Source: a virus. Taken from it: DNA of 64,000 bases. Positions 5,804 to 33,617 of the stretch are shown piece by piece; the stretch's first letter is position 1, and every line of letters starts with the position of its first letter. The stretch spans positions 50,951 through 114,950 of IMG/VR virus record IMGVR_UViG_3300007775_000001; one strand, given 5' to 3'. A program made the translations under genes and the position numbers. The notes under the pieces are model-generated. The model was not told the origin of the DNA. It saw only the letters and a program-made list of their open reading frames with translations, and did no database searches.

Positions 5804-5806
5804 GCC

Positions 5807-16604: not shown

Positions 16605-16675
16605 CCTCCTATAGCCAAGAGGAAAGGCGACTGGCTGCAACCCAGTGATCACTGGTTCGAATCCAGTTGGGAGGT
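16605..16675 (+). tRNA. tRNA-Cys(GCA)
   Basis: Acceptor CCTCCTA/TGGGAGG, anticodon loop CTGCAAC in an ACTGG/CCAGT stem, T-loop TTCGAAT. No encoded CCA, as for all tRNAs here. Its 3' GGGAGG lies 4 nt before the next ATG and can serve as that gene's Shine-Dalgarno sequence. Confidence 0.92.
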
Positions 16676-16678
16676 CTG

Positions 16679-16915: not shown

Positions 16916-16978
16916 CTCAACTGGTAGAGTACCCGGCTCTTAACCGGGAGGTTGCAGGTTCGAAGCCTGTCGGGGCAA
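16906..16978 (+). tRNA. tRNA-Lys(CTT)
   Basis: Acceptor TGCCCCG/CGGGGCA, anticodon loop CTCTTAA, T-loop TTCGAAG. Its 5' end overlaps the last codons of the upstream gene. Confidence 0.92.
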
Positions 16979-16987
16979 TCAGTTCAT

Positions 16988-17058
16988 TGCTCCGTAGCTC
17001 ATCGGTCGAGCGTCCGGCTTTTAACCGGAAGGCTGGGGTTCAACTCCCCACGGGGCAA
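16988..17058 (+). tRNA. tRNA-Lys(TTT)
   Basis: Acceptor TGCTCCG/CGGGGCA with one wobble pair, anticodon loop CTTTTAA, T-loop TTCAACT. Second Lys acceptor, reading AAA. Confidence 0.92.
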
Positions 17059-17064
17059 CTATAT

Positions 17065-17140
17065 ACCGGGATGGACTGGAGTGGTTCCAGCGCGAGACTC
17101 ATAATCTCGACCGACGTGGGTTCGAATCCCACTCCCGGCA
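17065..17140 (+). tRNA. tRNA-Met(CAT), atypical
   Basis: Anticodon loop CTCATAA in a CGAGA/TCTCG stem, T-arm GTGGG/CCCAC. The acceptor ACCGGGA/TCCCGGC leaves an A-C mismatch at position 1:72, and the D-arm (CTGG/CCAG) is displaced. An unpaired 1:72 is an initiator hallmark, but the anticodon stem lacks the three G-C pairs of bacterial initiators. It could be elongator Met, initiator-like, or Ile2. Confidence 0.8.
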
Positions 17141-17144
17141 CTAC

Positions 17145-17227
17145 GGAAGGATGGCCGAGAGGCTGAAGGCTCCTGTTTTGAAAACAGGCGTGCGAGAGCA
17201 CCGGGGGTTCGAATCCCTCTCCTTCCG
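17145..17227 (+). tRNA. tRNA-Ser(TGA)
   Basis: Acceptor GGAAGGA/TCCTTCC, long variable arm, anticodon loop TTTGAAA, discriminator G. First of four Ser tRNAs clustered here. Confidence 0.93.
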
Positions 17228-17232
17228 CTTAC

Positions 17233-17307
17233 ACACCGGTAGCTCAGTCTGGATAGAGCGGGGGCCTTCGAAGCCCATGGTCGCGGGTTCGAATCCTGCC
17301 CGGTGTG
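17233..17307 (+). tRNA. tRNA-Arg(TCG)
   Basis: Acceptor ACACCGG/CCGGTGT, anticodon loop CTTCGAA, T-loop TTCGAAT; the outermost anticodon-stem pair is mismatched (G-A). Confidence 0.9.
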
Positions 17308-17342
17308 CTGACCGCACCAAGAACCAACAGAGGAGATTGATC

Positions 17343-17405
17343 ATGTTGCGTGATACTGGCGCGGTGTTGTGGTGGGTCGTAGTGGGTGTATGGAAGCGTG
17401 GCTGA
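17343..17405 (+). CDS. Possible 20-residue hydrophobic peptide
   Basis: ATG 17343 preceded by GAGGAGATTGATC, a start signal like that of confirmed genes here. Encodes a short Val/Trp-rich peptide (AVLWWVVVGVW) that could insert in a membrane. The end overlaps tRNA-Ser(CGA). Supported only by the ribosome binding site. Confidence 0.35.
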   Translation: MLRDTGAVLWWVVVGVWKRG

Positions 17406-17474
17406 GCGGACAAAAGCACCTGTTTCGAAAACAGGCGGACGCAAGTCCCGAAGGTTCGAATCCTTCCGCTTCCG
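17392..17474 (+). tRNA. tRNA-Ser(CGA)
   Basis: Acceptor GGAAGCG/CGCTTCC, long variable arm, anticodon loop TTCGAAA. Confidence 0.93.
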
Positions 17475-17479
17475 TTACC

Positions 17480-17562
17480 GGGGAGTTGGCTGAGTGGTCT
17501 AAAGCACTGCGTTGGAATCGCAGCGGACGTAAGTCCCGTAGGTTCGAATCCTACACTCTCCG
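17480..17562 (+). tRNA. tRNA-Ser(GGA)
   Basis: Acceptor GGGGAGT/ACTCTCC with one wobble pair, long variable arm, anticodon loop TTGGAAT in CTGCG/CGCAG. Confidence 0.93.
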
Positions 17563-17565
17563 CTT

Positions 17566-17648
17566 GGAAGGATGGCTGAGTGGCCGAAAGCACCGCATTG
17601 CTAACGCGGCGGACGCAAGTCCCGTGAGTTCGAATCTCACTCCTTCCG
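17566..17648 (+). tRNA. tRNA-Ser(GCT)
   Basis: Acceptor GGAAGGA/TCCTTCC, identical to tRNA-Ser(TGA); anticodon loop TTGCTAA, long variable arm. Palindrome copy 3 starts 4 nt after it. Confidence 0.92.
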
Positions 17649-17652
17649 CCAA

Positions 17653-17666
17653 TTTCTACGTAGAAA
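17653..17666. repeat. Palindrome copy 3 (TTTCTACGTAGAAA core)
   Basis: The 14-bp core is perfect; the next left base is A instead of G, so the palindrome stops there. Located between tRNA-Ser(GCT) and the acyl-carrier-like gene, 18 bp before its ATG. Confidence 0.95.
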
Positions 17667-17684
17667 CTGATTGAGAGGTTGACT

Positions 17685-18194
17685 ATGCATGTTCGCAATG
17701 CAGTATGTAACGCGATTCAAGATTGTGTCGATCACAAGGAAGGCAAGTTCAGTGAGTCTGCGAATCTGAGAGATGATCTTGGTGTGGATTCACTTGATAT
17801 CGTGGAGATCGTGATGCAGGTTGAAGAGGAATTGGGTATCATGATCGAAGATGACCAGTTCAGCAACCTGATGACTGTAGGAGAGTTGATGCGTGTCGTT
17901 GAGAAGGCGACAGGCTATCGGAAGAGGGGTGTGAGCGATACGATTGAAGTCCTTGTGGTTGGACATGCAAGTTTGGTGGCACGCGAAGCTTCTCGTCGCA
18001 AGATTCCCTTTGTGTTCTTGCGCGAGATTCGCGGAAAGGTGAATGGTCTCGAAGGCCCAACTGTGCATACGGTTGGGAAGGTCAATCAGGTTTTCCGTGA
18101 CGATGTTGAAAAGTGGGAGAAGGAGAGTTGTCAGACATGGGCCGGGATTCATATCCCTGGGTCATTGGTGCAGATCAGTAACAAGCCCTTGTAG
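17685..18194 (+). CDS. Acyl-carrier-protein domain fused to unknown domain (169 aa)
   Basis: Residues 1-75 match an acyl carrier protein: helix I, an acidic ANLRDDLGVDSLDIVEIVMQ segment with the phosphopantetheine-accepting Ser at residue 36 (DSLD), and a helix III/IV region (DDQFSNLMTVGELMRVVE). In cells ACP carries acyl chains for fatty-acid or related synthesis. The remaining 90 residues (VLVVGHASLVAREASRRK onwards) form an unrecognised domain. GAGAGGTTGACT precedes ATG 17685. The stop codon lies inside tRNA-Thr. Possible roles: phage lipid or tRNA/peptide modification, or a decoy of host ACP. Function is inference. Confidence 0.8.
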   Translation: MHVRNAVCNAIQDCVDHKEGKFSESANLRDDLGVDSLDIVEIVMQVEEELGIMIEDDQFSNLMTVGELMRVVEKATGYRKRGVSDTIEVLVVGHASLVAREASRRKIPFVFLREIRGKVNGLEGPTVHTVGKVNQVFRDDVEKWEKESCQTWAGIHIPGSLVQISNKPL

Positions 18195-18258
18195 CTCAGC
18201 TAGGCAGAGCGGCTGTTTTGTAAACAGCGGGTCGGCGGTTCGATTCCGTCCAGGGGCT
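18185..18258 (+). tRNA. tRNA-Thr(TGT)
   Basis: Acceptor GCCCTTG/CAGGGGC, anticodon loop TTTGTAA in GCTGT/ACAGC. The first bases encode the stop of the upstream ACP-like gene. Confidence 0.92.
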
Positions 18259-18259
18259 C

Positions 18260-18330
18260 TTAGGGATCGTCTAGTGGTAGGACGCTGGGCTCTGAACTCA
18301 GAAACCTTGGTTCGAATCCAAGTCCCTAAA
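18260..18330 (+). tRNA. tRNA-Gln(CTG)
   Basis: Acceptor TTAGGGA/TCCCTAA with the U1-A72 pair typical of Gln; anticodon loop CTCTGAA. Confidence 0.92.
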
Positions 18331-18331
18331 C

Positions 18332-18405
18332 CTGGGTGTAGCTCTTAACGGTAGAGCGCGTGCTTTGGGAGCATGAGGCTGCTGGTTCGAATCCAGTCAC
18401 CCAGA
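18332..18405 (+). tRNA. tRNA-Pro(TGG)
   Basis: Acceptor CTGGGTG/CACCCAG, anticodon loop TTTGGGA, T-loop TTCGAAT. Confidence 0.92.
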
Positions 18406-18411
18406 CTACAT

Positions 18412-18485
18412 GGCGTGGGTAGCCAAGCGGTTAAGGCAGAAGGCTGTGAACCTTCCATGCATGGGTTCGAATCCCATCCCTCGCC
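18412..18485 (+). tRNA. tRNA-His(GTG)
   Basis: Encoded extra G at -1 opposite C73, the His identity element; acceptor GCGTGGG/CCCTCGC with one T-T mismatch; anticodon loop CTGTGAA. Confidence 0.92.
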
Positions 18486-18499
18486 CTGGAGGCACACCA

Positions 18500-18691
18500 A
18501 TGATCAGTTTGATGTTACCGAATGCTTCGCGTTCAGAAGTGATTGCGGTGAGTCGAATGGTTGCGCGCATGAAGGTCGGAATGCATGTCACACGGGCGAG
18601 AGACGCAGTGTGCGATCATTCGCAATGGAGTTGGGATACCCATGGTCGGGTGTGTGACTGTGGGGCGTTCATGGTTGATTTCGGAGATTGA
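18500..18691 (+). CDS. Hypothetical Cys-containing protein (63 aa)
   Basis: ATG 18500 with GGAGG 9 nt upstream, immediately after tRNA-His. Basic N-terminal part; C-terminal CDHSQWSWDTHGRVCDCG has Cys and His spaced like a small zinc site. No family recognised. Confidence 0.55.
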   Translation: MISLMLPNASRSEVIAVSRMVARMKVGMHVTRARDAVCDHSQWSWDTHGRVCDCGAFMVDFGD

Positions 18692-18693
18692 CG

Positions 18694-19062
18694 ATGGGCC
18701 ACAAAGAGAAGCTGATCAAAGTGAACGCTCTGATTGACGAGGGCGTTATCCCGCTTGTGGAAGCATTGAATGAGCTTCCCCGCGTGGTGACTTACAATAG
18801 CTGCGAGCAGTACAACGGTAAGGCAGAGGTGATGTTTCATATCATCGAGCCTGAGCGTGGAGAAGAGCCACGATTCGTGCGTGATCTGTCGAAGCAAATT
18901 GCTCGCATCAACGGAGATTTTGCTGTATGCTTGAGTCTTGAATGGTTTGCTGGAGGTGATGCGTCGATGTGGCTTCGTGTCCCTACTGAGCAAGTCGAGG
19001 TGGTAGCGAGCGCGATCAGACTGATTGCTACGGAGAGAAAAAGGAATGCCTCTCAAGAATAA
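18694..19062 (+). CDS. Hypothetical protein (122 aa)
   Basis: ATG 18694. Contains a helix leading to LPRVVTYNSCEQYNGKAEVMF, then strands and helices that look like a complete alpha/beta domain. A single Cys in a YNSCEQY context could be functional. No family assigned. It overlaps the next gene by 17 nt. Confidence 0.6.
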   Translation: MGHKEKLIKVNALIDEGVIPLVEALNELPRVVTYNSCEQYNGKAEVMFHIIEPERGEEPRFVRDLSKQIARINGDFAVCLSLEWFAGGDASMWLRVPTEQVEVVASAIRLIATERKRNASQE

Positions 19063-19429
19063 GACCCAACCGATCTATCTAACACCGGATTGGAGATTCT
19101 ACCAGGACGGTAACAACTTTGTGCTTGAGCACAAGGAGCGGGTCAGGAAGAAGGATGGTATCAACATGGCCGAGCGATGGTCGCAATTTTTTTACTCGTC
19201 GCTCGAAGCTGCTGTGCCAGGGCTGCTTAGTCGTGATATCATGGCTGGCAGAACTCTGGAGGAAATGAAGACTCGTCTTGAGGAGACGGCTCAACGGATC
19301 ATCTCTGTTCTTCGGGGTGCTCCTAATTTTGGTGTAGCACAGCGGTTGGCAGATGTGGGTGAGTCAGACCCGAATGTCACGGCTGTACCTCGAAGGCGGT
19401 TTTTTCGGCGCAACCGCCAAGCAACCTAA
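19046..19429 (+). CDS. Hypothetical protein (127 aa)
   Basis: ATG 19046 preceded by AAAAAGGA. N-terminal strands with aromatic residues, a helical middle (TLEEMKTRLEETAQRIISVL) and an Arg-rich C-terminus (PRRRFFRRNRQ) suggesting nucleic-acid contact. No family recognised. Confidence 0.55.
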   Translation: MPLKNKTQPIYLTPDWRFYQDGNNFVLEHKERVRKKDGINMAERWSQFFYSSLEAAVPGLLSRDIMAGRTLEEMKTRLEETAQRIISVLRGAPNFGVAQRLADVGESDPNVTAVPRRRFFRRNRQAT

Positions 19430-19466
19430 CCAAAGCGTCGATTCTCTCTGTCGGAGTTAGAACCCG

Positions 19467-19622
19467 ATGAGTAACACACAGCAAGTCAACATGAAGGATC
19501 ACGTCGAATCGCTGATCAAGAAGGCAGCAACGGCGGCAAGAGCGGACGAGGCGATGAAGTTCTCGCAAGCTGCAACCAATGCCGCGAATGCGATGTGTGC
19601 ATTGCGAGAGGCGATGAAATAG
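19467..19622 (+). CDS. Small conserved-type phage protein, Ala-rich helix (51 aa)
   Basis: ATG 19467. The sequence is an amphipathic Ala-rich helix pair (VESLIKKAATAARADEAMKF then SQAATNAANAM). Short ORFs with this KFSQAATNAANA-like pattern occur in many phages; their function is unknown to me. A GC-rich hairpin follows directly. Confidence 0.65.
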   Translation: MSNTQQVNMKDHVESLIKKAATAARADEAMKFSQAATNAANAMCALREAMK

Positions 19623-19629
19623 AACGGTG

Positions 19630-19656
19630 GCGGGCGGGATGAGTCTCGCCCGCTTT
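19630..19656 (+). terminator. GC-rich hairpin, possible terminator
   Basis: GCGGGCG (19630-19636) pairs with CGCCCGC (19647-19653), with inner pairs leaving a tetraloop, followed by only TTT. It lies between the 51-residue gene and tRNA-Phe and could end the transcript or mark a processing site. Confidence 0.5.
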
Positions 19657-19659
19657 CAT

Positions 19660-19732
19660 GTTGCGATAGCTCAGTCCGGTAGAGCGGTGGGTTGAAGCCC
19701 CATATGCAGAGGTTCGATTCCTCTTCGCAACA
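19660..19732 (+). tRNA. tRNA-Phe(GAA)
   Basis: Acceptor GTTGCGA/TCGCAAC, anticodon loop TTGAAGC, T-loop TTCGATT. Confidence 0.92.
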
Positions 19733-19733
19733 C

Positions 19734-19762
19734 TTGACAAACGGTAGCACATGTAGTACAGT
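19734..19762 (+). promoter_or_regulatory. Promoter with operator-like spacer (third of four)
   Basis: TTGACA (19734-19739), 17 bp containing GTAGCACATGTAG, then TACAGT (19757-19762). It starts 2 nt after tRNA-Phe and would drive tRNA-Tyr and the NADAR gene. It lacks the GGCTGAGAGAGAAACCC leader of the other three. Confidence 0.8.
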
Positions 19763-19798
19763 ACAAGAGCGGTGGATATCTTGTGGAGGAAGTGATTC

Positions 19799-19886
19799 GG
19801 GGATGTGCGTCAAGTGGCGAAGACAGCGGACTGTAAATCCGTGACCCATGCGGTAAACATCGAAGGTTCGACTCCTTCCGTCCCCA
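19799..19886 (+). tRNA. tRNA-Tyr(GTA)
   Basis: Acceptor GGGGATG/CGTCCCC, long variable arm as in bacterial Tyr, anticodon loop CTGTAAA. Confidence 0.9.
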
Positions 19887-19907
19887 CTGACAACGTGATG
19901 AGCTATC

Positions 19908-20339
19908 ATGCCGATTAAGATCGGGCGGTTCCAGGGTGAGTACAGGTTCCTGAGCAATTTTTGGCCTGCTCGTGTGAACTACGGAGGGATAGACTTCCCC
20001 ACCGTAGAACATGCCTATCAGGCTGCCAAAACGGACGATCAGAAGGCTCGTTTGGAGATTGCCAAGGCCCGTACTCCTGGGGTGGCAAAACGCCTTGGGA
20101 AGCGTGTTACGATGCGTCATAATTGGGATAGCATCAAGCTCAAGGTGATGAGTGTTCTGGTGACACAGAAGTTCACGAGCAATCCGCTTCTGAAGAAGCT
20201 TTTGCTTGACACCGGAGATGCGGAACTGATAGAAGGGAACGATTGGAATGACACCTTCTGGGGTATCTGTCGTGGGAAGGGTAGCAACCATCTGGGCAAG
20301 ATTTTGATGAGTGTTCGCGAATCGCTCAGATTGGTATGA
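19908..20339 (+). CDS. NADAR-family protein (YbiA-like N-glycosidase) (143 aa)
   Basis: Full-length NADAR domain: FQGEYRFLSNFWPARVNYGG, PTVEHAYQAAKTDD, the GKRVTMRHNWDSIKLKVM helix, and a C-terminal NDTFWG...GSNHLGKILM. Family members hydrolyse N-glycosidic bonds, such as those in riboflavin-pathway intermediates, and some remove ADP-ribose from nucleobases. In phages, NADAR may counter ADP-ribosylation-based defence or act on NAD-derived metabolites; that is inference. Embedded between tRNA-Tyr and tRNA-Gly. Confidence 0.9.
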   Translation: MPIKIGRFQGEYRFLSNFWPARVNYGGIDFPTVEHAYQAAKTDDQKARLEIAKARTPGVAKRLGKRVTMRHNWDSIKLKVMSVLVTQKFTSNPLLKKLLLDTGDAELIEGNDWNDTFWGICRGKGSNHLGKILMSVRESLRLV

Positions 20340-20340
20340 T

Positions 20341-20413
20341 GTGGGTCTAACTCAACTGGTAGAGTGTCGGCCTTCCAAGCCGGATGTTGCGGGTTCGACT
20401 CCCGTGGCCCACT
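20341..20413 (+). tRNA. tRNA-Gly(TCC)
   Basis: Acceptor GTGGGTC/GGCCCAC, anticodon loop CTTCCAA, T-loop TTCGACT. Begins 2 nt after the NADAR stop. Confidence 0.92.
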
Positions 20414-20414
20414 T

Positions 20415-20478
20415 AGGCAGATTGCGAGACTGGTGTGATTCGCTCCATTGTGACTGAGAGTGTCACCGTGATCTGCCT
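20415..20478 (+). ncRNA. tRNA-like three-way-junction element, 64 nt
   Basis: Closed by AGGCAGAT (20415-20422) and ATCTGCCT (20471-20478). Inside are a D-arm-like hairpin GCGA/TCGC and a second hairpin GTGAC/GTCAC with a 7-nt loop (TGAGAGT). There is no T-arm with TTC, and no usable anticodon since the loop lacks U33. It sits 1 nt after tRNA-Gly and 4 nt before tRNA-Ala, so it is probably released with them by tRNA processing. It may be a decayed tRNA or a deliberate tRNA mimic. Confidence 0.5.
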
Positions 20479-20482
20479 TCAT

Positions 20483-20557
20483 GGGGTATGGGACTGCTAG
20501 GGGTGGTCATCTGCCTTGCAAGCAGAACACAGCCCGGTTCGAATCCGGGATACTCCA
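20483..20557 (+). tRNA. tRNA-Ala(TGC)
   Basis: Acceptor GGGGTAT/ATACTCC, anticodon loop CTTGCAA in TCTGC/GCAGA, T-arm CCCGG/CCGGG. Confidence 0.93.
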
Positions 20558-20560
20558 TTG

Positions 20561-20645
20561 GCCCGTTTGTGCTAGGTAGAGACAACGAGATCAGCTAACC
20601 ACTGATCAAGCGGCTTGCCAAGGTGGTTCCTTGGTGCTGGCGGGC
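20561..20645 (+). ncRNA. tRNA-like element, about 85 nt
   Basis: GCCCG (20561-20565) pairs with CGGGC (20641-20645). Inside are a D-arm-like TGT/ACA hairpin with a GCTAGGTAGAG loop, a perfect GATCAG/CTGATC stem with a 7-nt CTAACCA loop (anticodon-arm geometry, U33 present), and CCAAGG/CCTTGG with a 5-nt loop instead of a normal T-arm. Flanked by tRNA-Ala and tRNA-Leu. Possibly a degenerate tRNA or a tRNA mimic. Confidence 0.45.
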
Positions 20646-20653
20646 ATTGTAAT

Positions 20654-20733
20654 GCCGATGTGGTGAAACTGGCAGACACGTCACCTTGAGGGGGTGATGC
20701 TTCGGCGTACAGGTTCGAGTCCTGTCATCGGCA
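20654..20733 (+). tRNA. tRNA-Leu(GAG)
   Basis: Acceptor GCCGATG/CATCGGC, long variable arm, anticodon loop TTGAGGG in TCACC/GGTGA. Confidence 0.92.
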
Positions 20734-20937
20734 CTGTAGGGAGTAGGGCACGGGGAGTTGTCTACGCTGTGAAAGCTGGTGATCGATCAATCGCCGGTGA
20801 GGGTTGAATGGTTAAGACCGGAAACCCAAGTAGCAGCTATCGAGGCGTACCCCACGGTTAGGCCTAGTAACTGCGCGAAGCGACCAGAATGCCGAGCATG
20901 AACGGGGGTTCGGGACTTCTCGTTTCCTACTTCTGAC
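20734..20937 (+). ncRNA. Structured non-coding RNA, about 200 nt
   Basis: No ORF. A closing helix AGTAGG near the 5' side pairs with CCTACT near the 3' end. Nested inside are ACGGGG and ACGC pairing with GCGT and CCCC, a GGTGAT/ATCGCC hairpin, a GGGTT/AACCC arm and a CGC-GAA-GCG hairpin. It lies directly between tRNA-Leu and the next gene. The sequence does not resemble tmRNA or RNase P RNA as I know them. Class and function unknown. Confidence 0.55.
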
Positions 20938-21279
20938 ATGGAACACAAAGAGCTATTCAACGCGATTAAGGCTCTGTATAGTGAAGAGCCATACGTGACT
21001 CAGCATGAGATTGCGGTAGCTCTGAATCAAATGAAGGTACGGCCAATTGGTGCGAGACAATGGACAGCGTCAACCGTATCGTTGTTCATGGTGCATCATG
21101 GGTGCGTGAGACGGAAGCTGCACAGGGCTTTCGAATGGCGGCGGCCTTCACAGATCGGTTGTAGACAATGCATTGAGCAGGGCGTAGAGTACGATACCAA
21201 ACAACTTGCTCCATGGATCAGAATCGCCATAGAGCGCGGGAAATTGAGGTTGAGAGATGAGAATCCATACACGGCGTGA
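20938..21279 (+). CDS. Hypothetical DNA-binding protein, recombinase-type HTH (113 aa)
   Basis: Residues 18-50 (PYVTQHEIAVALNQMKVRPI then WTASTVSLFMVHHG) resemble the helix-turn-helix seen in large serine recombinases and related DNA-binding proteins, where ARQWTASTV is a typical phrase. The C-terminal half is basic with two Cys (GCRQC). There is no catalytic recombinase domain. Possibly a transcription or packaging factor. Confidence 0.55.
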   Translation: MEHKELFNAIKALYSEEPYVTQHEIAVALNQMKVRPIGARQWTASTVSLFMVHHGCVRRKLHRAFEWRRPSQIGCRQCIEQGVEYDTKQLAPWIRIAIERGKLRLRDENPYTA

Positions 21280-21302
21280 AGAGATGGAGAGCGAGGAGAT
21301 GC

Positions 21303-21375
21303 GCTCCCATCGTCTAGTGGTCTAGGATATCAGACTTTCAATCTGATGACACGGGTTCGAATCCCGTTGGGAGTA
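21303..21375 (+). tRNA. tRNA-Glu(TTC)
   Basis: Acceptor GCTCCCA/TGGGAGT, anticodon loop CTTTCAA, T-loop TTCGAAT. The 3' GGGAG is correctly placed as Shine-Dalgarno for the short ORF at 21380. Confidence 0.92.
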
Positions 21376-21379
21376 CCAC

Positions 21380-21460
21380 ATGTTCAAGAAGCACGATTGG
21401 GTTCTGGTGGTTGTTGTTGGAGCATTGTGTGCTGCTGTCATGTGGGTGTGGTTGTTCTAG
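21380..21460 (+). CDS. Possible 26-residue membrane peptide
   Basis: ATG 21380 lies 4 nt after tRNA-Glu, and the only ribosome binding site is that tRNA's GGGAG acceptor strand. Short polar N-terminus then a single hydrophobic segment (VLVVVVGALCAAVMWVWLF). The stop is followed immediately by tRNA-Leu. Supported by position and composition only. Confidence 0.4.
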   Translation: MFKKHDWVLVVVVGALCAAVMWVWLF

Positions 21461-21462
21461 CT

Positions 21463-21538
21463 ACCCTTGTGGCGGAACTGGTAGACGCGCTACGTTCAGA
21501 CCGTAGTTGTATTGGGAGTTCGAGTCTCCCCAAGGGTA
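21463..21538 (+). tRNA. tRNA-Leu(CAG)
   Basis: Acceptor ACCCTTG/CAAGGGT, anticodon loop TTCAGAC in CTACG/CGTAG, T-loop TTCGAGT. Confidence 0.92.
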
Positions 21539-21541
21539 TTT

Positions 21542-21617
21542 GCCTCTGTGGCCTAGTCTGGTTCAGGGCAACAGGTTGTCAACCTGGAGATCACGGGTTC
21601 GAATCCCGTCAGGGGCG
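21542..21617 (+). tRNA. tRNA-Asp(GTC)
   Basis: Acceptor GCCTCTG/CAGGGGC, anticodon loop TTGTCAA; the outermost anticodon-stem pair is mismatched (A-G). Confidence 0.92.
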
Positions 21618-21622
21618 TACAC

Positions 21623-21696
21623 AGGTCGGTAGCTCAGCTAGGTAGAGCGGCGGCTTCCAAACCCGCTGGTCGAGGGTTCGAATCCTTCCCGGCCTG
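21623..21696 (+). tRNA. tRNA-Trp(CCA)
   Basis: Acceptor AGGTCGG/CCGGCCT, anticodon loop TTCCAAA, discriminator G. The base pair closing the anticodon loop is a C-C mismatch. Confidence 0.88.
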
Positions 21697-21716
21697 CTTT
21701 CAAAAGGAGATTGACC

Positions 21717-21929
21717 ATGAAAATCAGTGTTGATGCATTCGAAGATGCTGTGACCCGATGGAAGCAGAGTGGCGCACGAGACGGAACGCATCAACGCCTG
21801 GGTCAATACTTGATGAACGTCTTCTTTGCTCATCAGCCGGGGATTTCTGTTCCTGGAATTTTCTACGAGGAAGACTGGAAGAAGGCGTACGCAATGTTCA
21901 GGGAGCGGTTTGTCGATAACCAACTCTGA
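21717..21929 (+). CDS. Hypothetical protein (70 aa)
   Basis: ATG 21717 after AAAAGGAGATTGACC. Helical protein ending FVDNQL. Beyond its TGA the same frame stays open for 23 codons with a coiled-coil-like sequence (LPLQEQLQDLKEKLIEEMK) up to a TAG inside tRNA-Val. The TGA may therefore have truncated a longer protein, or be read through. Confidence 0.6.
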   Translation: MKISVDAFEDAVTRWKQSGARDGTHQRLGQYLMNVFFAHQPGISVPGIFYEEDWKKAYAMFRERFVDNQL

Positions 21930-21991
21930 CTTCCTCTTCAGGAACAGTTGCAAGACTTGAAAGAGAAGCTGATAGAGGAGATGAAGATCAT

Positions 21992-22063
21992 TGCTCCGTA
22001 GCTCAGGGGTAGAGCGGTGGTTTTACAAGCCGCTGGTCGTAGGTTCGAATCCTACCGGGGCAA
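21992..22063 (+). tRNA. tRNA-Val(TAC)
   Basis: Acceptor TGCTCCG/CGGGGCA, the same acceptor as tRNA-Lys(TTT); anticodon loop TTTACAA. Confidence 0.92.
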
Positions 22064-22079
22064 CTAGGTTGTGCAATCA

Positions 22080-22153
22080 GGGCTGGTAGCTCAATCGGTC
22101 AGAGCGGCTGACTCATAATCAGAAGGCTGCTGGTTCGAGTCCAGCCCAGCCCA
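22080..22153 (+). tRNA. tRNA-Met(CAT), elongator type
   Basis: Acceptor GGGCTGG/CCAGCCC, anticodon loop CTCATAA, regular D- and T-arms. More orthodox than the CAT tRNA at 17065; Ile2 cannot be excluded without modification data. Confidence 0.88.
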
Positions 22154-22156
22154 TAT

Positions 22157-22230
22157 TGGACAGTAGCTCAGTCGGTTAGAGCGCGATCCTGATACGGTCG
22201 AGGTCGAAGGTTCGATTCCTTCCTGTCCAA
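22157..22230 (+). tRNA. tRNA-Ile(GAT)
   Basis: Acceptor TGGACAG/CTGTCCA, anticodon loop CTGATAC in CGATC/GGTCG. Confidence 0.92.
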
Positions 22231-22248
22231 CTGACGATCCGATTTGGT

Positions 22249-22431
22249 AGCGTTGATGCTCCATAGACGTTCTGGGTCGAGATCAGTTGTACTTTAATAT
22301 GGAGCATGATGGTGGCGTATCAACGCATGCGGTGAAGCCGTGCGAGTAACTGTTGGCGCGCATGACAGGAATCGACGGAAGAAACTGCCGTGGCGAGTCC
22401 CCGGAGTGATAACCGGGCGTCACCATCATCT
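22249..22431 (+). ncRNA. Structured non-coding RNA, about 180 nt
   Basis: Two domains between tRNA-Ile and tRNA-Gly with no ORF. First, a perfect 10-bp hairpin ATGCTCCATA (22256-22265) with TATGGAGCAT (22298-22307). Second, a domain closed by GATGGTGGCG (22308-22317) with CGTCACCATC (22418-22427), enclosing ACGG/CCGT and CCCGG/CCGGG hairpins. The long-range helices are strong evidence for a folded RNA. Probably released by tRNA processing. Class unknown. Confidence 0.6.
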
Positions 22432-22504
22432 GTGGATGTAGCTCAATCGGCAGAGCGTCACGTTGCCAACGTGAAGGTTGTGGGATCGTTGCCCATCATC
22501 CACT
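22432..22504 (+). tRNA. tRNA-Gly(GCC) with unusual T-loop
   Basis: Acceptor GTGGATG/CATCCAC, anticodon loop TTGCCAA in TCACG/CGTGA. The T-loop reads ATCGTTG, so position 54 is A and 58 is T, replacing the near-universal T54-A58 pair by its reverse. Second Gly tRNA of the island. Confidence 0.85.
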
Positions 22505-22509
22505 TGCAC

Positions 22510-22582
22510 TGTCCTGTAGCTTAGTCGGTAGAGCGAGTGCCTGTTAAGCACTTTGTCGTTGGTTCGAGCCCAACCAGGACAG
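22510..22582 (+). tRNA. tRNA-Asn(GTT)
   Basis: Acceptor TGTCCTG/CAGGACA, anticodon loop CTGTTAA in AGTGC/GCACT, discriminator G. Confidence 0.92.
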
Positions 22583-22604
22583 CTAAATCTAAAAGAGACC
22601 AACC

Positions 22605-23276
22605 ATGACCATGCGGGACTGTGACATTCATGCGGCAATCGAAGCCGGTGAGCTTTCAATTGATCCGTACGATCCGGATTCCGTAGGGCCTGCATCAATC
22701 GATCTGACTCTGAGTGTTTATTTCATGAGGGTGGATGGTCAGGGTACGGGTGGGGTGATCAGAATGGATCAACCCATCGAGTACGAGAAGTTTACTCGCC
22801 AGCGTGTGATTATCCCTCCGAAGTCCTTCATTCTTGCTAGTACCATCGAGCGTGTTACTCTTCCCGCTGATATCTGTGCAAAGGTCGAGGGTCGATCATC
22901 TATCGGTCGTATGGGTCTGTTTGTACAGAATGCTGGATGGGTTGATCCTGGTTGGGATGGGTGTCTGACTCTGGAACTGTACAACGCCAACGAGTTCCCC
23001 ATCGAGATCGTTGCTGGTCGCCGGATTTGTCAATTGGTGTTGGATCGTATGACCGGCCCGGTTGACAAGCCCTATGCTGGAAAGTACAAGGGCGATGGAT
23101 CGGTAGCAGGTAGTCGTATCTACAAGGATTGGGAAGCGTTGCTTGATGACTGCGAAATCTGCAATGGAGAGTTAGGCGGGGTCAAGGGAAATGAGAACGT
23201 CATTCATGGCAAGAAGGTCTGTGACTACTGTTATGCGAAGATGATGCGAGGAGAGATTCTGTACCCCGAAGGTTGA
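22605..23276 (+). CDS. dCTP deaminase-like protein with C-terminal zinc-finger extension (223 aa)
   Basis: The trimeric dUTPase/dCTP-deaminase fold is clear: SVGPASIDLTLS near residue 30, KVEGRSSIGRMGLFVQNAGW near 90, and GCLTLELYN further on. These motifs bind deoxynucleotide, and the RSSIGR segment is closest to Dcd. It would make dUMP/dUTP for thymidylate synthesis or clear dCTP. After the catalytic domain a tail of about 45 residues carries CEIC and CDYC pairs, a zinc ribbon absent from ordinary Dcd. Start ATG 22605 after AAAGAGACC. Confidence 0.85.
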   Translation: MTMRDCDIHAAIEAGELSIDPYDPDSVGPASIDLTLSVYFMRVDGQGTGGVIRMDQPIEYEKFTRQRVIIPPKSFILASTIERVTLPADICAKVEGRSSIGRMGLFVQNAGWVDPGWDGCLTLELYNANEFPIEIVAGRRICQLVLDRMTGPVDKPYAGKYKGDGSVAGSRIYKDWEALLDDCEICNGELGGVKGNENVIHGKKVCDYCYAKMMRGEILYPEG

Positions 23277-23283
23277 CAAATCT

Positions 23284-23364
23284 GCCCGCGTGGTGGAATC
23301 TGGTAGACACAACAGGCTCAAACCCTGTGGCTTCGGCGTCCCGGTTCGAATCCGGGCGCGGGTA
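23284..23364 (+). tRNA. tRNA-Leu(CAA)
   Basis: Acceptor GCCCGCG/CGCGGGT, long variable arm, anticodon loop CTCAAAC. A run of seven T follows directly (23365-23371), so the tRNA's GC-rich 3' half may double as the terminator of the island. Confidence 0.92.
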
Positions 23365-23444
23365 TTTTTTTGGCTTGAGTTGAGAGAATTGTCCGTCAAT
23401 GTCAGAGAACGTTGATACATCAGGATACACCAAGAGGAATCACG

Positions 23445-26773: not shown

Positions 26774-27292
26774 ATGAAAAAGTGGCTAGGGAGGCTGGTT
26801 TTCTTTTCCGTGTGCTATGTGGCGAGCGTGGCGACGGTTGTGTTCGGTCTGTCCGATCACATCATCGATAACGCGGTGAGTCTGAAGATGCTGGCTTCCC
26901 GCGTGAACACTCTGGAAGAGACAGTCAGTCTGAAGCATGTGCAAAAGCTGACCGTCACAGCATACTCTCCCAGACGAGTCGAAACGGATGATGATCCGTT
27001 TATCAACGCTTCGATGACTCCCGTGAGCGAGGGGCAGATTGCGGTATCTCGTGATCTGTTCAACGATGGATGGGTCTTCTATCGGTATGTATACATCAAG
27101 GGGTATGGAATCTTTGAGATTCGCGATCTGATGAACGTCCGGTACAAGAAGAGAATCGATGTGTTCTTTAACGACACTCGAAAAGCCCGTCAATGGGGTG
27201 TGAAGCGGCTTACGGTGGCACTGCTTGCGAACACTGAAAATAGGCTGCTACGGGGCACCAAAGGGCTTGCAAGTCCACCGATCATACAGTAG
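26774..27292 (+). CDS. Membrane-anchored 3D-domain protein (RlpA-like barrel) (172 aa)
   Basis: The N-terminus has two Lys then a transmembrane anchor (LVFFSVCYVASVATVVFGL, residues 8-26). After a short coiled coil, LTVTAYSPRRVETDDDP begins a 3D domain, which continues through GYGIFEIRDLMN and ends DVFFNDTRKARQWGVKRLTV, the conserved DVYF-x-KAxxWG ending. These double-psi barrels occur in lytic transglycosylases and other wall enzymes. It probably acts in the periplasm or cell wall, for DNA entry or lysis. Its end holds the promoter of the downstream ncRNA. Confidence 0.85.
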   Translation: MKKWLGRLVFFSVCYVASVATVVFGLSDHIIDNAVSLKMLASRVNTLEETVSLKHVQKLTVTAYSPRRVETDDDPFINASMTPVSEGQIAVSRDLFNDGWVFYRYVYIKGYGIFEIRDLMNVRYKKRIDVFFNDTRKARQWGVKRLTVALLANTENRLLRGTKGLASPPIIQ

Positions 27293-27295
27293 AGT
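27267..27295 (+). promoter_or_regulatory. Promoter of the 27.3 kb structured RNA
   Basis: TTGCAA (27267-27272), 17 bp, TAGAGT (27290-27295), overlapping the end of the 3D-domain gene. Predicted start near 27302, just before the closing helix of the RNA. Confidence 0.65.
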
Positions 27296-27301
27296 AGAGA
27301 T

Positions 27302-27486
27302 AGCCTCTGGCCATCACAGGAGCGCGGGTTTTTCCTCCTTTTTTCCCGTGCTCATTGGCCTTGTTTGTCCGTTGCCCGAAACAACCAGACAGGGCGATGG
27401 TCAGAGGTTCCTTCGAATAGACTCGCTCCTTCCCGTTGCGAGTCTTGTGAGCCGGAAGAGGTAACCCCCACCTCTTCCGGTTTTCT
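27302..27486 (+). ncRNA. Structured non-coding RNA, about 185 nt
   Basis: CCTCTGGCCATC (27304-27315) pairs along all 12 bases with GATGGTCAGAGG (27396-27407), one G-U pair included. It encloses a GAGCGCGGG/CCCGTGCTC stem (27320-27353) with a U-rich loop and a TTGTTT/AAACAA stem (27361-27384). An AGACTCGC/GCGAGTCT hairpin (27419-27445) and the terminator follow. No ORF fits. With its own promoter and terminator this is a free-standing small RNA gene. It resembles no family I know. Confidence 0.75.
27452..27486 (+). terminator. Intrinsic terminator of the 27.3 kb RNA
   Basis: CCGGAAGAGGT pairs perfectly with ACCTCTTCCGG around a 7-nt loop, then TTTTCTC. Confidence 0.9.
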
Positions 27487-27500
27487 CAATAGGTGAGTCC

Positions 27501-27884
27501 ATGGAAGCCCGAATCCCTATCGTGCGGGTGACTGCAAAGGACTGCCGTTGGGATTACTTCAGGGCTTCCGGAGCCGGTGGTCAGAAGCGCAACAAGACAT
27601 CTTCAGCCGTTCGCTGTACCCATGACCCTAGCGGTGCGGATGGGACAGCGTCAGATACCCGTTCGCAATCCAAAAACAGAGAGCTTGCTTTCTACAGGAT
27701 GGCAAGTTCAGACGAGTTCAACAAATGGCTGCGTTTGGAGACAGCAAGGCAGACGGGTGAGCAGGAACGTATCGAGAAGCGTGTTGAAACGCAAATGCAG
27801 CCCGAAAACCTGAAGGTAGAGGGTCGGGTCAACGGTAAGTGGAAACCCCTGGAGATTGACGATGACGGAAGCACAACAAGTTGA
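27501..27884 (+). CDS. GGQ release-factor-domain protein (RF-1/ArfB-like) (127 aa)
   Basis: Residues 15-60 carry the class-I release factor catalytic core: DYFRASGAGGQKRNKTSSAV with the GGQ triplet that triggers peptidyl-tRNA hydrolysis in the 50S centre, then TRSQSKNRELAF. There is no codon-recognition domain, so it resembles ArfB/PrfH-type stand-alone factors. The C-terminal 50 residues are helical and charged; ArfB-like factors insert such a tail in the mRNA channel. It could rescue stalled ribosomes during infection. It overlaps the next gene by 23 nt. Confidence 0.85.
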   Translation: MEARIPIVRVTAKDCRWDYFRASGAGGQKRNKTSSAVRCTHDPSGADGTASDTRSQSKNRELAFYRMASSDEFNKWLRLETARQTGEQERIEKRVETQMQPENLKVEGRVNGKWKPLEIDDDGSTTS

Positions 27885-28547: not shown

Positions 28548-28750
28548 CTTGTCTACATTCCTGGGATGCTCATGGGGTCGATGTTCGAAACCTCCGTCCC
28601 GATGATCCGAAGCTTCTGGCACAAGAATGCATCAACTGTGGTGTGACCATTAAGCAGCATATTGAGTGGTCAAATCAACGCACTGGCTTGGACATGAGCG
28701 CCTTTGACGGCAGTGTGTTTTTCGATCAGCGGACTGCGCCTGGGTCGTGA
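28484..28750 (+). CDS. Small zinc-type protein (88 aa)
   Basis: ATG 28484 after CAGGAGGTCGCAG. Basic N-terminus, then CLHSWDAHG and, about 25 residues later, CINCGVTIKQH: Cys and His spaced as in a zinc ribbon. Last gene before the terminase transcript. Confidence 0.6.
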   Translation: MARKRQHQKPGKEGRAYKKWLTCLHSWDAHGVDVRNLRPDDPKLLAQECINCGVTIKQHIEWSNQRTGLDMSAFDGSVFFDQRTAPGS

Positions 28751-28768
28751 CATTTGAGAAAAATGTCA
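28748..28768. promoter_or_regulatory. Inverted repeat upstream of terminase promoter
   Basis: TGACATTT and AAATGTCA form a perfect 8-bp inverted repeat with a 5-nt spacer, 16 bp before the -35 box. It overlaps the upstream stop codon. Possible operator for the virion genes or a weak hairpin terminator without U-run. Confidence 0.5.
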
Positions 28769-28784
28769 TAACTCATTGTTTTGC

Positions 28785-28813
28785 TTGACTTTGGTGCAAA
28801 ACAGGGGTTATCG
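28785..28813 (+). promoter_or_regulatory. Promoter of the virion module
   Basis: TTGACT (28785-28790) with TTATCG at 17 bp, or TATCGT at 18 bp. The leader contains a GTGGG...CCCAC / GAGT...ACTC fold (28815-28856) just before ATG 28859, which lacks a clear Shine-Dalgarno sequence and may be translationally controlled. Confidence 0.65.
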
Positions 28814-28858
28814 TGTGGGTCACTATGAGTTTTTGCTTTCACTCACGGTGGCCCACGG

Positions 28859-30337
28859 ATGGTTGCTGCTCTTACCACTGCTCAGGTAGACTCTCTACTC
28901 CGTAGTCCGGAAGTAGAAGAACTCTTGCTCAGGAACGACTTGGCGTATTTCGCTGAGAAGATTCTTGGCATGGAAGTTGTTGCTCATCACAGGAAGTGGT
29001 CAGAGCTTACCGCGAAGTACAATCGTCTCTGCATCAACTGTGCTCGTGACCATGGGAAGAGCTTCTTTTTTTCTCATGCGTATGTGATCTGGAGAGCCTA
29101 TTTCAAATGGCTGCCGGACTATGGTGACAGCAAGTCTCTTCCGAAGTTCCCCATTGGCTACATCTGGTCGAACACAGAACAACAGGCAATTGACCATCTC
29201 ACGCTGGTTCAGCAAGAGATTCTGAGTAATCCAAAGCTTCGCTTCCTTGTCCCTCCTGGCAAGGGTGTTGGCGGCATGCCCGCTGGGTGGAGTAAGAAGC
29301 GGATGCGGTTGTCCAACGGTGTGAGCATCCGTGCAATCGGTTGGGGTGGTAGAGTCCGTGGGGCTCATCCTGTCTGGGCGGTCTTCGATGACATCCTGAA
29401 CGACGAGACGATCTACTCTGAGTTGGTGCGGCGCAAGCAGATCGACTACTTCTACTCAGCCGCGACACCGTCCGTGGTTCCAGGTGGTCAGATCATCGTT
29501 GTGGGTACACCGTTTCATCAAGAAGACCTGTATGCAGAACTGAAGAAGAACCCGGAGTATGTCTTCGCTCGTTACCCATCACTCAGCGAAGATGGCAACG
29601 AGAAGCCTCTTTGGCCTACGCGGTACAGCAAGGAAATCCTCCTCAGAAAGCGTCGTGAAGTTGGACAGGTTCGGTTCGCTCGCGAATATATGTGCGTTCC
29701 GATTTCGGATGAGTCCAGCTTGTTCCCGGAGCGCATCATTGTGCCGTGCTTCGAGGAGTCATTCCGAATGCCTACGCATCTGACGGCCGAAGACTTGTCT
29801 GAGCTTCAGGTGTATACGGGGGTTGACCTTGCAATGTCTGCTAATGTGGGAGCGGACTGGACTGTAATCATTACGATTGGGATTGACCGCTACAAGAATA
29901 TCTGGGTTCTGAACATTCGAAGATTCAAGGGCAAAGGTCTGACTGAGCAGTTGAAGGCTATCCAGGATGTGTACAACAGCTTCAAGCCCCGCAAGATTTG
30001 GATCGAAGACAATAACTTCCAGCGCATCTTCAAGGATGAGTTGGTCAAGAATACCGATCTGCCGGTACAGGGGTATACAACACATGCTCGCAAGAAGAAC
30101 TCGATGGAAGAGGGTGTTCCGTCGATGCAAATCTTGTTTGAGAATCGGAAGTTTGTTATTGCTCGTGCCACGGCTTATGACCGTGAGATCACGGATCAAC
30201 TGATCGGTGAGTTGAAATCTTTCTCGTGGATGGACGGTAAGCTTCAGGGTGTTGGGTCGCATGATGATATGGTAATGGCTCTTTGGATTGCGCTGGAGGC
30301 GTCCAGGGAAGGGGAGTTTCAATTTTCATTTGCGTGA
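28859..30337 (+). CDS. terL: Terminase large subunit (492 aa)
   Basis: DNA-packaging motor. The ATPase has a deviant Walker A (ARDHGKS, near residues 62-68) and a Walker B strand ending in FDD (near 176-178). The RNase H-like nuclease has YTGVDLAMS with the first catalytic Asp near residue 322 and HDDMVMALW near 467. Length is typical. It packages DNA into the prohead through the portal encoded 7 kb downstream. First gene of the late transcript. Confidence 0.95.
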   Translation: MVAALTTAQVDSLLRSPEVEELLLRNDLAYFAEKILGMEVVAHHRKWSELTAKYNRLCINCARDHGKSFFFSHAYVIWRAYFKWLPDYGDSKSLPKFPIGYIWSNTEQQAIDHLTLVQQEILSNPKLRFLVPPGKGVGGMPAGWSKKRMRLSNGVSIRAIGWGGRVRGAHPVWAVFDDILNDETIYSELVRRKQIDYFYSAATPSVVPGGQIIVVGTPFHQEDLYAELKKNPEYVFARYPSLSEDGNEKPLWPTRYSKEILLRKRREVGQVRFAREYMCVPISDESSLFPERIIVPCFEESFRMPTHLTAEDLSELQVYTGVDLAMSANVGADWTVIITIGIDRYKNIWVLNIRRFKGKGLTEQLKAIQDVYNSFKPRKIWIEDNNFQRIFKDELVKNTDLPVQGYTTHARKKNSMEEGVPSMQILFENRKFVIARATAYDREITDQLIGELKSFSWMDGKLQGVGSHDDMVMALWIALEASREGEFQFSFA

Positions 30338-30805: not shown

Positions 30806-31060
30806 ATGGCGCGCGGGAATGTGGTCTGGTTCGATATCCAGAAGGGTTTTGGATTCATCACAGACGAGGCTCAAGGGGACGATGTATTTGTCCACTACTC
30901 GAAGATCGAGGGGCCAGAAGGTGAGTTCAAATATCTCGATGCTGGAGACCTTGTGGAGTTCGAGCGGTTTGAGGTGGACAGAGGTAATGGCCTGAAGAAA
31001 CCTCAAGCGAAGAACGTAAAGCTTGTCAGCCGCCGCGAAACCACAAAGGGCGACAAGTGA
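30806..31060 (+). CDS. Cold-shock domain protein (84 aa)
   Basis: CspA-type fold: [16 protein letters not shown] contains the RNP1-like KGFGFI, and [10 protein letters not shown] the RNP2-like VFVH. Binds single-stranded nucleic acid. It ends with a basic tail of about 15 residues. CCGGAG precedes ATG 30806. It is coupled to the sigma factor gene by a GTGA overlap, so both are likely regulators of phage expression. Confidence 0.92.
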
Positions 31061-31752
31061 GATCAGAGATCGTGAAGTGGATTCGGATTGTTGTTTTCAG
31101 GACGGTGAAGGGAAAGGGGTTGATCAATCTTGACATTGACAACCTCATCTCCGCCGGATATCTGGGTTACGCTCAGGCGTTGAAGAACTACGATGAGCGT
31201 AAGAAGGTCAAGTTCAAGACCTTTGCTGAGTATCGCATCAAAGGCGCGGTACTTGACGAGGTTCGACGTGTGATCGGTGACGAGCGGTGTAAGACGGAAA
31301 GGCCAGTTAGGGTCAATGATGTCGATTTCGAGATGATCATTGATCCTCGTGACTATGGTTGTGAGTTCGAGATCGATTTCGAGAAGTTCATGGATGCGTT
31401 GCCGATGACTGTCCGTGAGAAGAACATTCTCCGATCACGCATTCAGGGTATGAGCCTGAAGGAGATCGGACAGCAGTTTAGGTTCAGCGAATCCCGTGCT
31501 TCTCAGATTCTCTATAGCATCCGTGTGAAGGCTGCACCAACGTTCGAGCGATTTTTTGGAATCAAGGTGGTGGTTGCACCAAGATTTCGCAAGTATCGGC
31601 GTACCTCGTCCGATAATGGAGTGAGGAGATTCCCGTGGAATCTGGCGTTTGCCGATATGTGTCGGCGCAACAGGGTGGGGCGAATCATTTCAATTCGGTC
31701 GCACCAATTCCCAATCCAACCTCTCCCTTGGCTTAGAGCGAGCGGTCAATGA
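31057..31752 (+). CDS. Sigma-70 family sigma factor, FliA/SigF-like (231 aa)
   Basis: Region 2: [20 protein letters not shown] then [20 protein letters not shown], very close to the region 2 of FliA/SigF-group sigmas. Region 4 helix-turn-helix: [20 protein letters not shown] near residues 128-147. A C-terminal extension of about 60 residues, basic and unlike sigma region 4 tails, follows. GTG start 31057 overlaps the CspA-like stop. It likely redirects host RNA polymerase to phage promoters. Its recognition sequence cannot be inferred. Confidence 0.9.
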
Positions 31753-33617
31753 AGCTGACCTTGGACGATTACGCCGCTGTGTTGGATGACGTTGTCAAAG
31801 CGGCTTCCAAGAGTTCGGGACGCAAGACATTCGAAGATTTTGAAGAAGAGATCGGTAAGTCTCTAACCTTCAATCCGCTTGCTCCCACAGAGATGACTCC
31901 TGAAGTTGTTGCGAGAGAGGGTATTTACTCTCCCTATGCACAGGCTCCAGAAGGCGGGTTTGTACCGCATACCGCTGAGCACTGGATGGGGATGGGCAAA
32001 GACCCCGATGACTATCGCAACGTTCACCAGATTTATGAGGAAGCTGGTGCCAAACAGCCTTCTCTCGATAGCCTGAGACACATGTTCGTGCAAGCTATCG
32101 AAGACACTGATCGCGCTGGCCGAAGTTTCTCGTTCCTGTCGCGTTCTATCAAGCCGACTGAATGTGAAATGATCGTGAAGGGTATTCCTATGCCGTCCAA
32201 GGGTGGCGGCATGAAGGATATGGGGATGCCTGTGGGAACGATTCATCGGTTCAGTGATGGTAAGCAGTATCGGAAAGAAGCTCCTGGCAAGTGGGTTCCG
32301 GTGTCAGCCGGTGCGAAGCCGGGTGGAAAGGAAGACGCTACTCAGTCAGGACACGTTGAGATCGAGCGACATGCGATGATCACTCGTATTCGACAGGAGA
32401 TGGATCGTCGTACCAAAGCGGCTGCTGACCAGAAGCAGTTGGAAGGTCGTATGAAGCAGACGGCCAAGAAGTATGCGACCAAACAGACTGAAGCGGCTGG
32501 GATCAAGTCCCCGGTAGATCAGCTACCGAAAGACAAGGACAAGCCTGGAAACTTCGATCTGTTGGAAGGAGCGGACGCGGCGAAGAAGATTTACTTCATC
32601 GAGGGCTCGAAGGTCAAGATGGATCACGTTCAACAGTTCTTGAAGGAGTTCAGTCAGGACTTCAAGGACATCGATTCGAACGGTCAGAATTCGAAGTTCC
32701 GTGAAGACATGATGAGCAATGGGGCGTTGTATTATACATCCCGGCTCAAGGGGCCTGATTCTCTACTGAAGAAGATGCAGAGCAAGTATCTCGACCGCTC
32801 TCTTAACACGGTGACTGACGCGATTGGTGCGAGAGCGTTGGCAGGTAGTCTGGAAGATCAGAAGCGGCTCTTCACGTTCTTCAAGTCTCAGCATGAGTTG
32901 GTCGAAGAGGAAGACTTCGCTGAGCAGGGGCGTCCCGATGGATATCGGGCGATCCATTGTCTGTTCCGGACAAGTTCCGGAAAGATCGGTGAGTTTCAGT
33001 TCAAGACGATCAATCAACAGCTTTACTCTGGGTATTTCCATGACACGGTTTACAAGGGTAGTAAAGCTATTCAGGACGATCCAGAGGTAGCGAAATTTCA
33101 GAGAGATGTGTCGGACTATCTGCACAGGCTTGATTCTGGTCAGGAACAGTTCGATATCAATCGCGCTCCAAAGGCTCCAAAGCAACTTGTGGCTGCGAAG
33201 TACAAGGACGAGAAGGGTAAGGAGCAGACGGCTGGAGAGTTTCCTTGGGAAAACGTTCGGACTAAGAATGTGGGTGACTATCTGTACAAGGCAGATGACG
33301 AGTCTCAGAGTGTGAAGTATTTTCTGGTGTTGCGCGATAAGAAAGGCAACACGGTTGGAACCAAGAGCTACAACAGCCTGGAGGCTGCGCAGAAAGAACA
33401 GACACGTCTTCTCAATCAGAAGAACTATGGCGATCTTCCTATTGCTCAGGCTACGAGCGAGAAGGAGTTGTTCGCCACCTTCCATGAGTACAGACCACGG
33501 GTCGGCTCACAGGTTGACGATCAGAGCAAAGACAAAAGCCCTGCCAAGTACACAAGGGGTTCAAAAACGACCCCTCAGAAGCGGAAATTTGGGAGAGACC
33601 AAAATGGCTCACGATGA
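31749..33617 (+). CDS. RelA/SpoT-domain protein in head region (622 aa)
   Basis: ATGA overlap with the sigma gene. Residues 1-290: helical/disordered, with LDDVVKA near the start and a GTIHRFSDGKQYRKEAPGKW motif shared with the 33604 product. Residues about 295-440 form a RelA/SpoT synthetase domain: TSRLKGPDSLLKKM, VTDAIGARAL, GRPDGYRAIHCLF (near 393) and GEFQFKTINQQLYSGYFHD (near 414), keeping the Asp, Arg, Tyr and Glu typical of (p)ppGpp synthetases and related pyrophosphate-transfer toxins. The C-terminal 150 residues are lysine-rich. Its position among capsid genes suggests packaged cargo; that is inference. Confidence 0.8.
   Translation: MKLTLDDYAAVLDDVVKAASKSSGRKTFEDFEEEIGKSLTFNPLAPTEMTPEVVAREGIYSPYAQAPEGGFVPHTAEHWMGMGKDPDDYRNVHQIYEEAGAKQPSLDSLRHMFVQAIEDTDRAGRSFSFLSRSIKPTECEMIVKGIPMPSKGGGMKDMGMPVGTIHRFSDGKQYRKEAPGKWVPVSAGAKPGGKEDATQSGHVEIERHAMITRIRQEMDRRTKAAADQKQLEGRMKQTAKKYATKQTEAAGIKSPVDQLPKDKDKPGNFDLLEGADAAKKIYFIEGSKVKMDHVQQFLKEFSQDFKDIDSNGQNSKFREDMMSNGALYYTSRLKGPDSLLKKMQSKYLDRSLNTVTDAIGARALAGSLEDQKRLFTFFKSQHELVEEEDFAEQGRPDGYRAIHCLFRTSSGKIGEFQFKTINQQLYSGYFHDTVYKGSKAIQDDPEVAKFQRDVSDYLHRLDSGQEQFDINRAPKAPKQLVAAKYKDEKGKEQTAGEFPWENVRTKNVGDYLYKADDESQSVKYFLVLRDKKGNTVGTKSYNSLEAAQKEQTRLLNQKNYGDLPIAQATSEKELFATFHEYRPRVGSQVDDQSKDKSPAKYTRGSKTTPQKRKFGRDQNGSR

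Follow-up and report, generated by a model that had tools for sequence, protein, structure and literature searches.

A predicted three-armed RNA with an anti-Shine-Dalgarno loop next to a release-factor-like gene of an environmental phage

The DNA analysed is a 64-kb window, positions 50951-114950 of a 114,950-base phage record that comes from environmental DNA; all coordinates below are those of the window. A 208-nt intergenic gap (27292 to 27501) contains an RNA element of ~185-190 nt with a predicted three-armed fold, and the features of the locus are as follows.

26774-27292, + strand: upstream gene, 172 aa; no Pfam match; weak PHROG matches, mostly of unknown function
27267-27295, + strand: proposed promoter TTGCAA-17-TAGAGT, matching the consensus at 8 of 12 positions; it overlaps the 3' end of the upstream ORF
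27297-27486, + strand: whole predicted structured RNA, between the ORF end at 27292 and the start of the RF-1-domain ORF at 27501
27302-27409, + strand: three-way-junction domain, closed by helix P1
27302-27315/27396-27409, + strand: P1, 14 bp with 2 G-U pairs and no mismatch
27317-27357, + strand: arm P2, a 9-bp helix (27320-27328/27345-27353) with 3 outer bp (27317-27319/27355-27357) and a 16-nt loop
27329-27344, + strand: P2 loop, UUUUUCCUCCUUUUUU, anti-Shine-Dalgarno or antisense to a ribosome-binding site
27358-27395, + strand: arm P3, a 10-bp helix (27358-27367/27386-27395) with a weak 3-bp apical stem
27419-27445, + strand: 8-bp hairpin (27419-27426/27438-27445), loop UCCUUCCCGUU
27452-27486, + strand: intrinsic terminator, CCGGAAGAGGT-AACCCCC-ACCTCTTCCGG followed by TTTTCT; 11-bp core 27452-27462/27470-27480
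27501-27884, + strand: release-factor-like gene with an RF-1 (GGQ) domain, 127 aa; Pfam RF-1 E = 3.9e-19, phrog_3122 E = 7.6e-28

The initial annotation had called the upstream gene a 3D-domain gene, a name for which Pfam returned no match. The RF-1-like ORF starts 14 nt past the U-tract of the terminator and carries its own ribosome-binding site (AGGTGAG, 27491-27497). Genes around the element are all on the + strand with small gaps, and small ORFs lie between the RF-1-like gene and the large terminase gene terL (28859-30337; Terminase_6C and phrog_38 matches), which is 1.4 kb downstream of the RNA. Three neighbouring genes downstream of terL (30806-33617 in all) encode a cold-shock protein (30806), a phage sigma factor (31057) and a 622-aa RelA/SpoT-domain protein. 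Immediately before terL, several hairpins at 28741-28858 form the second-best fold of the + strand (z -4.9 for 28741-28880) and include a promoter-like TTGACT-18-TATCGT at 28785-28814; this stretch may serve as a leader of terL or mark a transcription boundary. Upstream of the RNA, an array of 28 tRNA genes occupies 16.6-23.4 kb (16605-23365); ORFs lie between the tRNA genes, and those at 19908-20339 and 22605-23276 encode a NADAR-domain protein and a dCTP deaminase, respectively. The phage seems to invest heavily in translation. Its genes use Shine-Dalgarno sites (median -6.3 kcal/mol vs a background of -3.0 kcal/mol).

The minimum free energy computed for 27297-27486 (+) was -95.1 to -95.4 kcal/mol, against -57 ± 4 for shuffled sequences (z ~ -9.0); none of 200 and none of 1000 shuffles reached it, and among all 190-nt steps along the + strand of the window this segment had the lowest fold for its GC content. 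Its modules were also extreme when folded singly (three-way-junction domain, 27302-27409, z -7.4; 8-bp hairpin, z -5.1; terminator, z -6.2), and the flanking genes, used as controls, gave z -0.8 and -0.1. One dominant fold was obtained at all transcript lengths tested from 27410 onward. A 12-bp helix (27304-27315/27396-27407) enclosing two stems and followed by an 8-bp hairpin had been proposed at this locus, and the whole arrangement was recovered: the helix extends to 14 bp when two outer pairs are counted, and the enclosed stems are P2 (9 bp) and P3 (10 bp). A P1-like helix (at least 14 bp, at most 2 G-U, 60-120 nt spacing) occurs once in the window; of 20 dinucleotide-shuffled versions of the whole window, 6 contain one and 14 do not. 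P1 by itself is mildly unusual; the combination of modules is decisive. By these folding models the predicted structure is far beyond chance and the structure is real. The three main helices have five interior non-Watson-Crick pairs; read on the + strand, every one of them is G-U and A-C does not occur, a bias that leans towards selection as a + strand RNA, with the qualification that the folding program itself favours G-U pairs.

Members of known families and diverged relatives were then sought. At the gathering cut-off Rfam 15 reported tRNAs alone in the window, in agreement with the earlier remark that no matching family was known; the best sub-threshold matches in the region were Termite-leu (21.5 vs 51 bits, on the terminator) and rsmX (15.1 vs 56 bits). 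A tRNA or tmRNA was rejected since neither ARAGORN nor Rfam made such a call on the element, as were 6S RNA and pRNA, for which Rfam gave no match. Two coding readings were likewise set aside: a leader peptide (MVRGSFE, a 7-codon ATG frame from ~27397 with a weak AGGG before the start) and a 79-aa TTG frame across the element, which found no support. Against phage and plasmid records, blastn matched only short pieces of the terminator stem or the loop, at the level of chance. With terL, the RF-1-like protein or the upstream protein as query, a single IMG/VR contig of 11,407 bases was found each time; it is 100% identical to the window, base for base, and so comes from the same virus and offers no comparison. 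The same gene order was found nowhere else with these three proteins, nor with a portal scan. The next terL relatives have ~60% identity or less (one partial match, 64%), and the RNA was absent from those searched. A single-sequence covariance model run on the collected loci and, apart from the window's own record, on 53 whole records gave nothing above chance, a weak negative in view of the little reach of such a model. The helix-pattern scan of IMG/VR matched 87 stretches, about half of which are one region that has a 102-nt spacing and no such fold; pattern scans for the P3 loop and the second hairpin gave chance matches, and the 115-kb record holds no other copy. The recurring 102-nt stretch (CTGGCCATC...GATGGTCAG) is ungapped across ~40 contigs (L066, L069 and L071 among them); it is probably conserved phage coding sequence with no relation to the RNA element. 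That the collections searched hold no diverged relative is a limit of the data and not evidence against the structure.

An isolated locus of this kind, with a long near-perfect helix that would suit an inverted repeat too, might also be a structure at the DNA level or an accident: the remnant of a mobile-element inverted repeat, a site for packaging or replication, or pairing by chance. We consider this improbable against a z of -9 spread over three independent modules, a + strand that folds better than its complement through G-U pairs (-95 vs -77 kcal/mol), a terminator on the + strand only and the lack of another copy in the record.

The element had been described as a free-standing structured RNA with a promoter and a perfect terminator, and this description holds in part. 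The compact fold does end in an intrinsic terminator, one of six strong terminator-like sites that the whole record has, all of them on the + strand, and its stem is perfect; its U-tract is just UUUUCU. The promoter is at chance level: sites with 8 of 12 consensus matches number 77 on the + strand of the window, or one per 831 nt. A promoter of the RNA's own is possible but unsupported, and read-through from the upstream genes is equally possible. Better promoters were seen elsewhere in the window, TTGACA-17-TACACT (5807, 13504) and TTGACA-17-TACAGT (19734), which by their sequences suggest a set of host-sigma-type promoters; the first of them, close to consensus, directly follows a strong terminator (14-bp stem and T-run) within 5766-5835.

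These transcription signals bear on the main rival to a small RNA, a cis-acting leaky terminator or processing element within a long co-directional transcript, in which the fold would protect or set the upstream mRNA's 3' end and the leaky terminator would set the amount of transcription of the RF-1-like gene and the genes beyond it. The co-directional, closely spaced genes fit such an element, as do a U-tract short enough for a leaky terminator and the chance-level promoter of the RNA itself; the space between the U-tract and the RF-1-like ORF (27501) is too short for a promoter, so this ORF needs read-through. The 110-nt junction domain, however, exceeds what a terminator or a 3' stabiliser needs, and in relatives (L004 and L010, for example) the terminator ahead of terL is a plain hairpin. 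A riboswitch or attenuator was rejected, and the cis element loses some ground with it, because no alternative antiterminator pairing formed when the 3' arm of the terminator was blocked or not yet made; switch-like attenuation is thus disfavoured, and the folding model points to a rigid scaffold and not a switch. Taken together the cis element is doubtful but quite possible, and a cis role and a small-RNA role can coexist.

The loop of P2, UUUUUCCUCCUUUUUU, contains CCUCCUU, seven nucleotides of the 3' end of 16S rRNA (ACCUCCUUA), and its computed probability of being unpaired is 1.0. A match of this grade was found in 0.5% of loop shuffles and in 0.2% of pieces drawn at random from the window, figures to be read with the fact that the motif was noticed post hoc; CCUCC in a pyrimidine-rich 16-nt loop could be meaningless. 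The loop of the 8-bp hairpin, UCCUUCCCGUU, holds a second, shorter match (UCCUU, or CUCCUU with the closing C) that is weak by itself, being equalled by 26% of shuffles and 5% of window pieces. In the 115-kb record CCTCCTT occurs once on the + strand, in the P2 loop, and eight times on the other strand. Within the 64-kb window the count over both strands is three; none of 100 shuffles gave a lower one (mean 8.9), and this low count fits avoidance of anti-Shine-Dalgarno sequence in transcripts.

The exact complement of the loop (AAAAAAGGAGGAAAAA) is commonly a viral ribosome-binding site. Among the matches listed, it precedes an ATG that opens a frame in 71 of 114 distinct places on viral contigs, a site being scored when ATG lay 5-14 nt after GGAGG and opened a frame of at least 30 codons; for AAGGAGG, the control, such a start was found at 34 of 123 places in an independent set of viral loci (28%), and permutations gave a mean of 14%. 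The P2 loop is in this respect an accessible seed complementary to a plausible class of targets, the start-proximal ribosome-binding sites. Most of the best loop-complementary sites in the phage lie outside start regions, and no specific target was found among them. One of the better of these sites, at 3203-3235 (AAAGGAGGTGAGTCCCATG), has in common with the RF-1-like gene (27492-27503) the leader GGTGAGTCC(C)ATG and opens a frame of 4 codons. The leader that matches the P2 loop is AAAAAAGGAGGAAAAAUG. Cofolding with an E. coli-like ribosome-binding site brought no net gain, and an ideal site gained solely by opening the stem, in a secondary-structure model that omits pairing of a loop inside an intact hairpin.

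A U/C-rich single-stranded loop might equally serve as a binding site for a protein or a larger assembly, such as the phage's cold-shock protein or its sigma factor, the ribosome, RNA polymerase or the packaging machinery. Cold-shock proteins favour U-rich single strands, the phage encodes such a protein (30806) as well as a sigma factor (31057), and terL is 1.4 kb downstream. No partner, however, has positive evidence behind it, and packaging of the phi29 type is excluded by a large terminase with an RNaseH-like domain, with Rfam finding neither pRNA nor 6S RNA; we therefore regard a protein-binding RNA as unlikely.

The explanation that we favour, tentatively and with a probability of about 0.4, is a small RNA specific to this phage lineage that would block ribosome-binding sites. 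A stable small RNA would be made from the element, either by transcription from the weak promoter (27267-27295) or by cutting or terminating transcripts that read through from the upstream gene, with a 3' end at the terminator (~27486). The rigid three-way junction would project the P2 arm outward and so keep its 16-nt pyrimidine loop unpaired; the loop would be antisense to ribosome-binding sites, and the second hairpin would present a shorter copy of the anti-Shine-Dalgarno sequence. Pairing with the Shine-Dalgarno regions of mRNAs, of the host, the phage or both, would then keep the 30S ribosome off. The analysis shows the fold, the open loop, its match to the anti-Shine-Dalgarno sequence and the frequent viral use of its complement as a ribosome-binding site; a discrete transcript, pairing within the cell, a set of targets and a benefit to the phage are inferred. 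A broader version of this mechanism, in which the phage RNA bears an imitation of the ribosomal anti-Shine-Dalgarno sequence on a rigid three-armed scaffold, competes widely for mRNA leaders with 16S rRNA and shuts off host translation, appears remote.

Little is known of phage small RNAs, most of which are found by their match to catalogued families; the RNA described here matches no family, yet its loop suggests an immediate test. If the favoured explanation is true, a phage RNA that blocks ribosome-binding sites adjoins a release-factor-like gene and lies downstream of a 28-tRNA array.

Both phage small RNAs and anti-Shine-Dalgarno small RNAs are known kinds; an anti-ribosome-binding-site loop on a phage three-way junction was not found in the literature searched, which was limited in extent. 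The pRNA of phi29 is a phage three-way junction of ~110 nt with two loops and resembles the RNA here, which also has a terminase gene 1.4 kb away; that gene, in contrast, encodes a large terminase (Terminase_6C, phrog_38) and not a packaging ATPase of the phi29 type. The cyanophage S-CREM1, with 24 tRNA genes and structured RNAs that match the Rfam families abiF, wcaG, manA and glnA (PMC9964418), is likewise a tRNA-rich environmental phage with structured RNAs, but those RNAs belong to Rfam families and the present one matches none. AsxR and AgvB are phage-encoded small RNAs that act as sponges against host small RNAs (PMC12559287); they share with our proposal an origin in phage DNA and action by base pairing, and differ from the present RNA, which has no known target and no known sequence relation to them, in being small-RNA sponges.

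The closest parallel is with the Caulobacter small RNAs alphaR8/SisA-D, which repress mRNAs via a single-stranded 5'-UUUCCUCCCU-3' termed an 'anti-Shine-Dalgarno signature' (PMC12559287). The single-stranded core is UUUCCUCCCU in alphaR8/SisA-D/MmgR and UUUCCUCCUU here, identical at 9 of 10 nucleotides and so not exact, and a Rho-independent terminator forms the 3' end in both. In the bacterial alphaR8/SisA-D RNAs, which act with Hfq, the core belongs to a stretch that follows a weak hairpin (PMC12559287), whereas in the phage RNA it is the apical 16-nt loop of a 9-bp arm in a three-way junction; the alphaR8 family belongs to the Alphaproteobacteria, whereas the present RNA is on a phage contig, and no sequence relation between them has been shown. 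Because the core is inexact and its structural context differs, the RNA was not filed in the alphaR8 family; by analogy, it likely works as alphaR8/SisA-D do.
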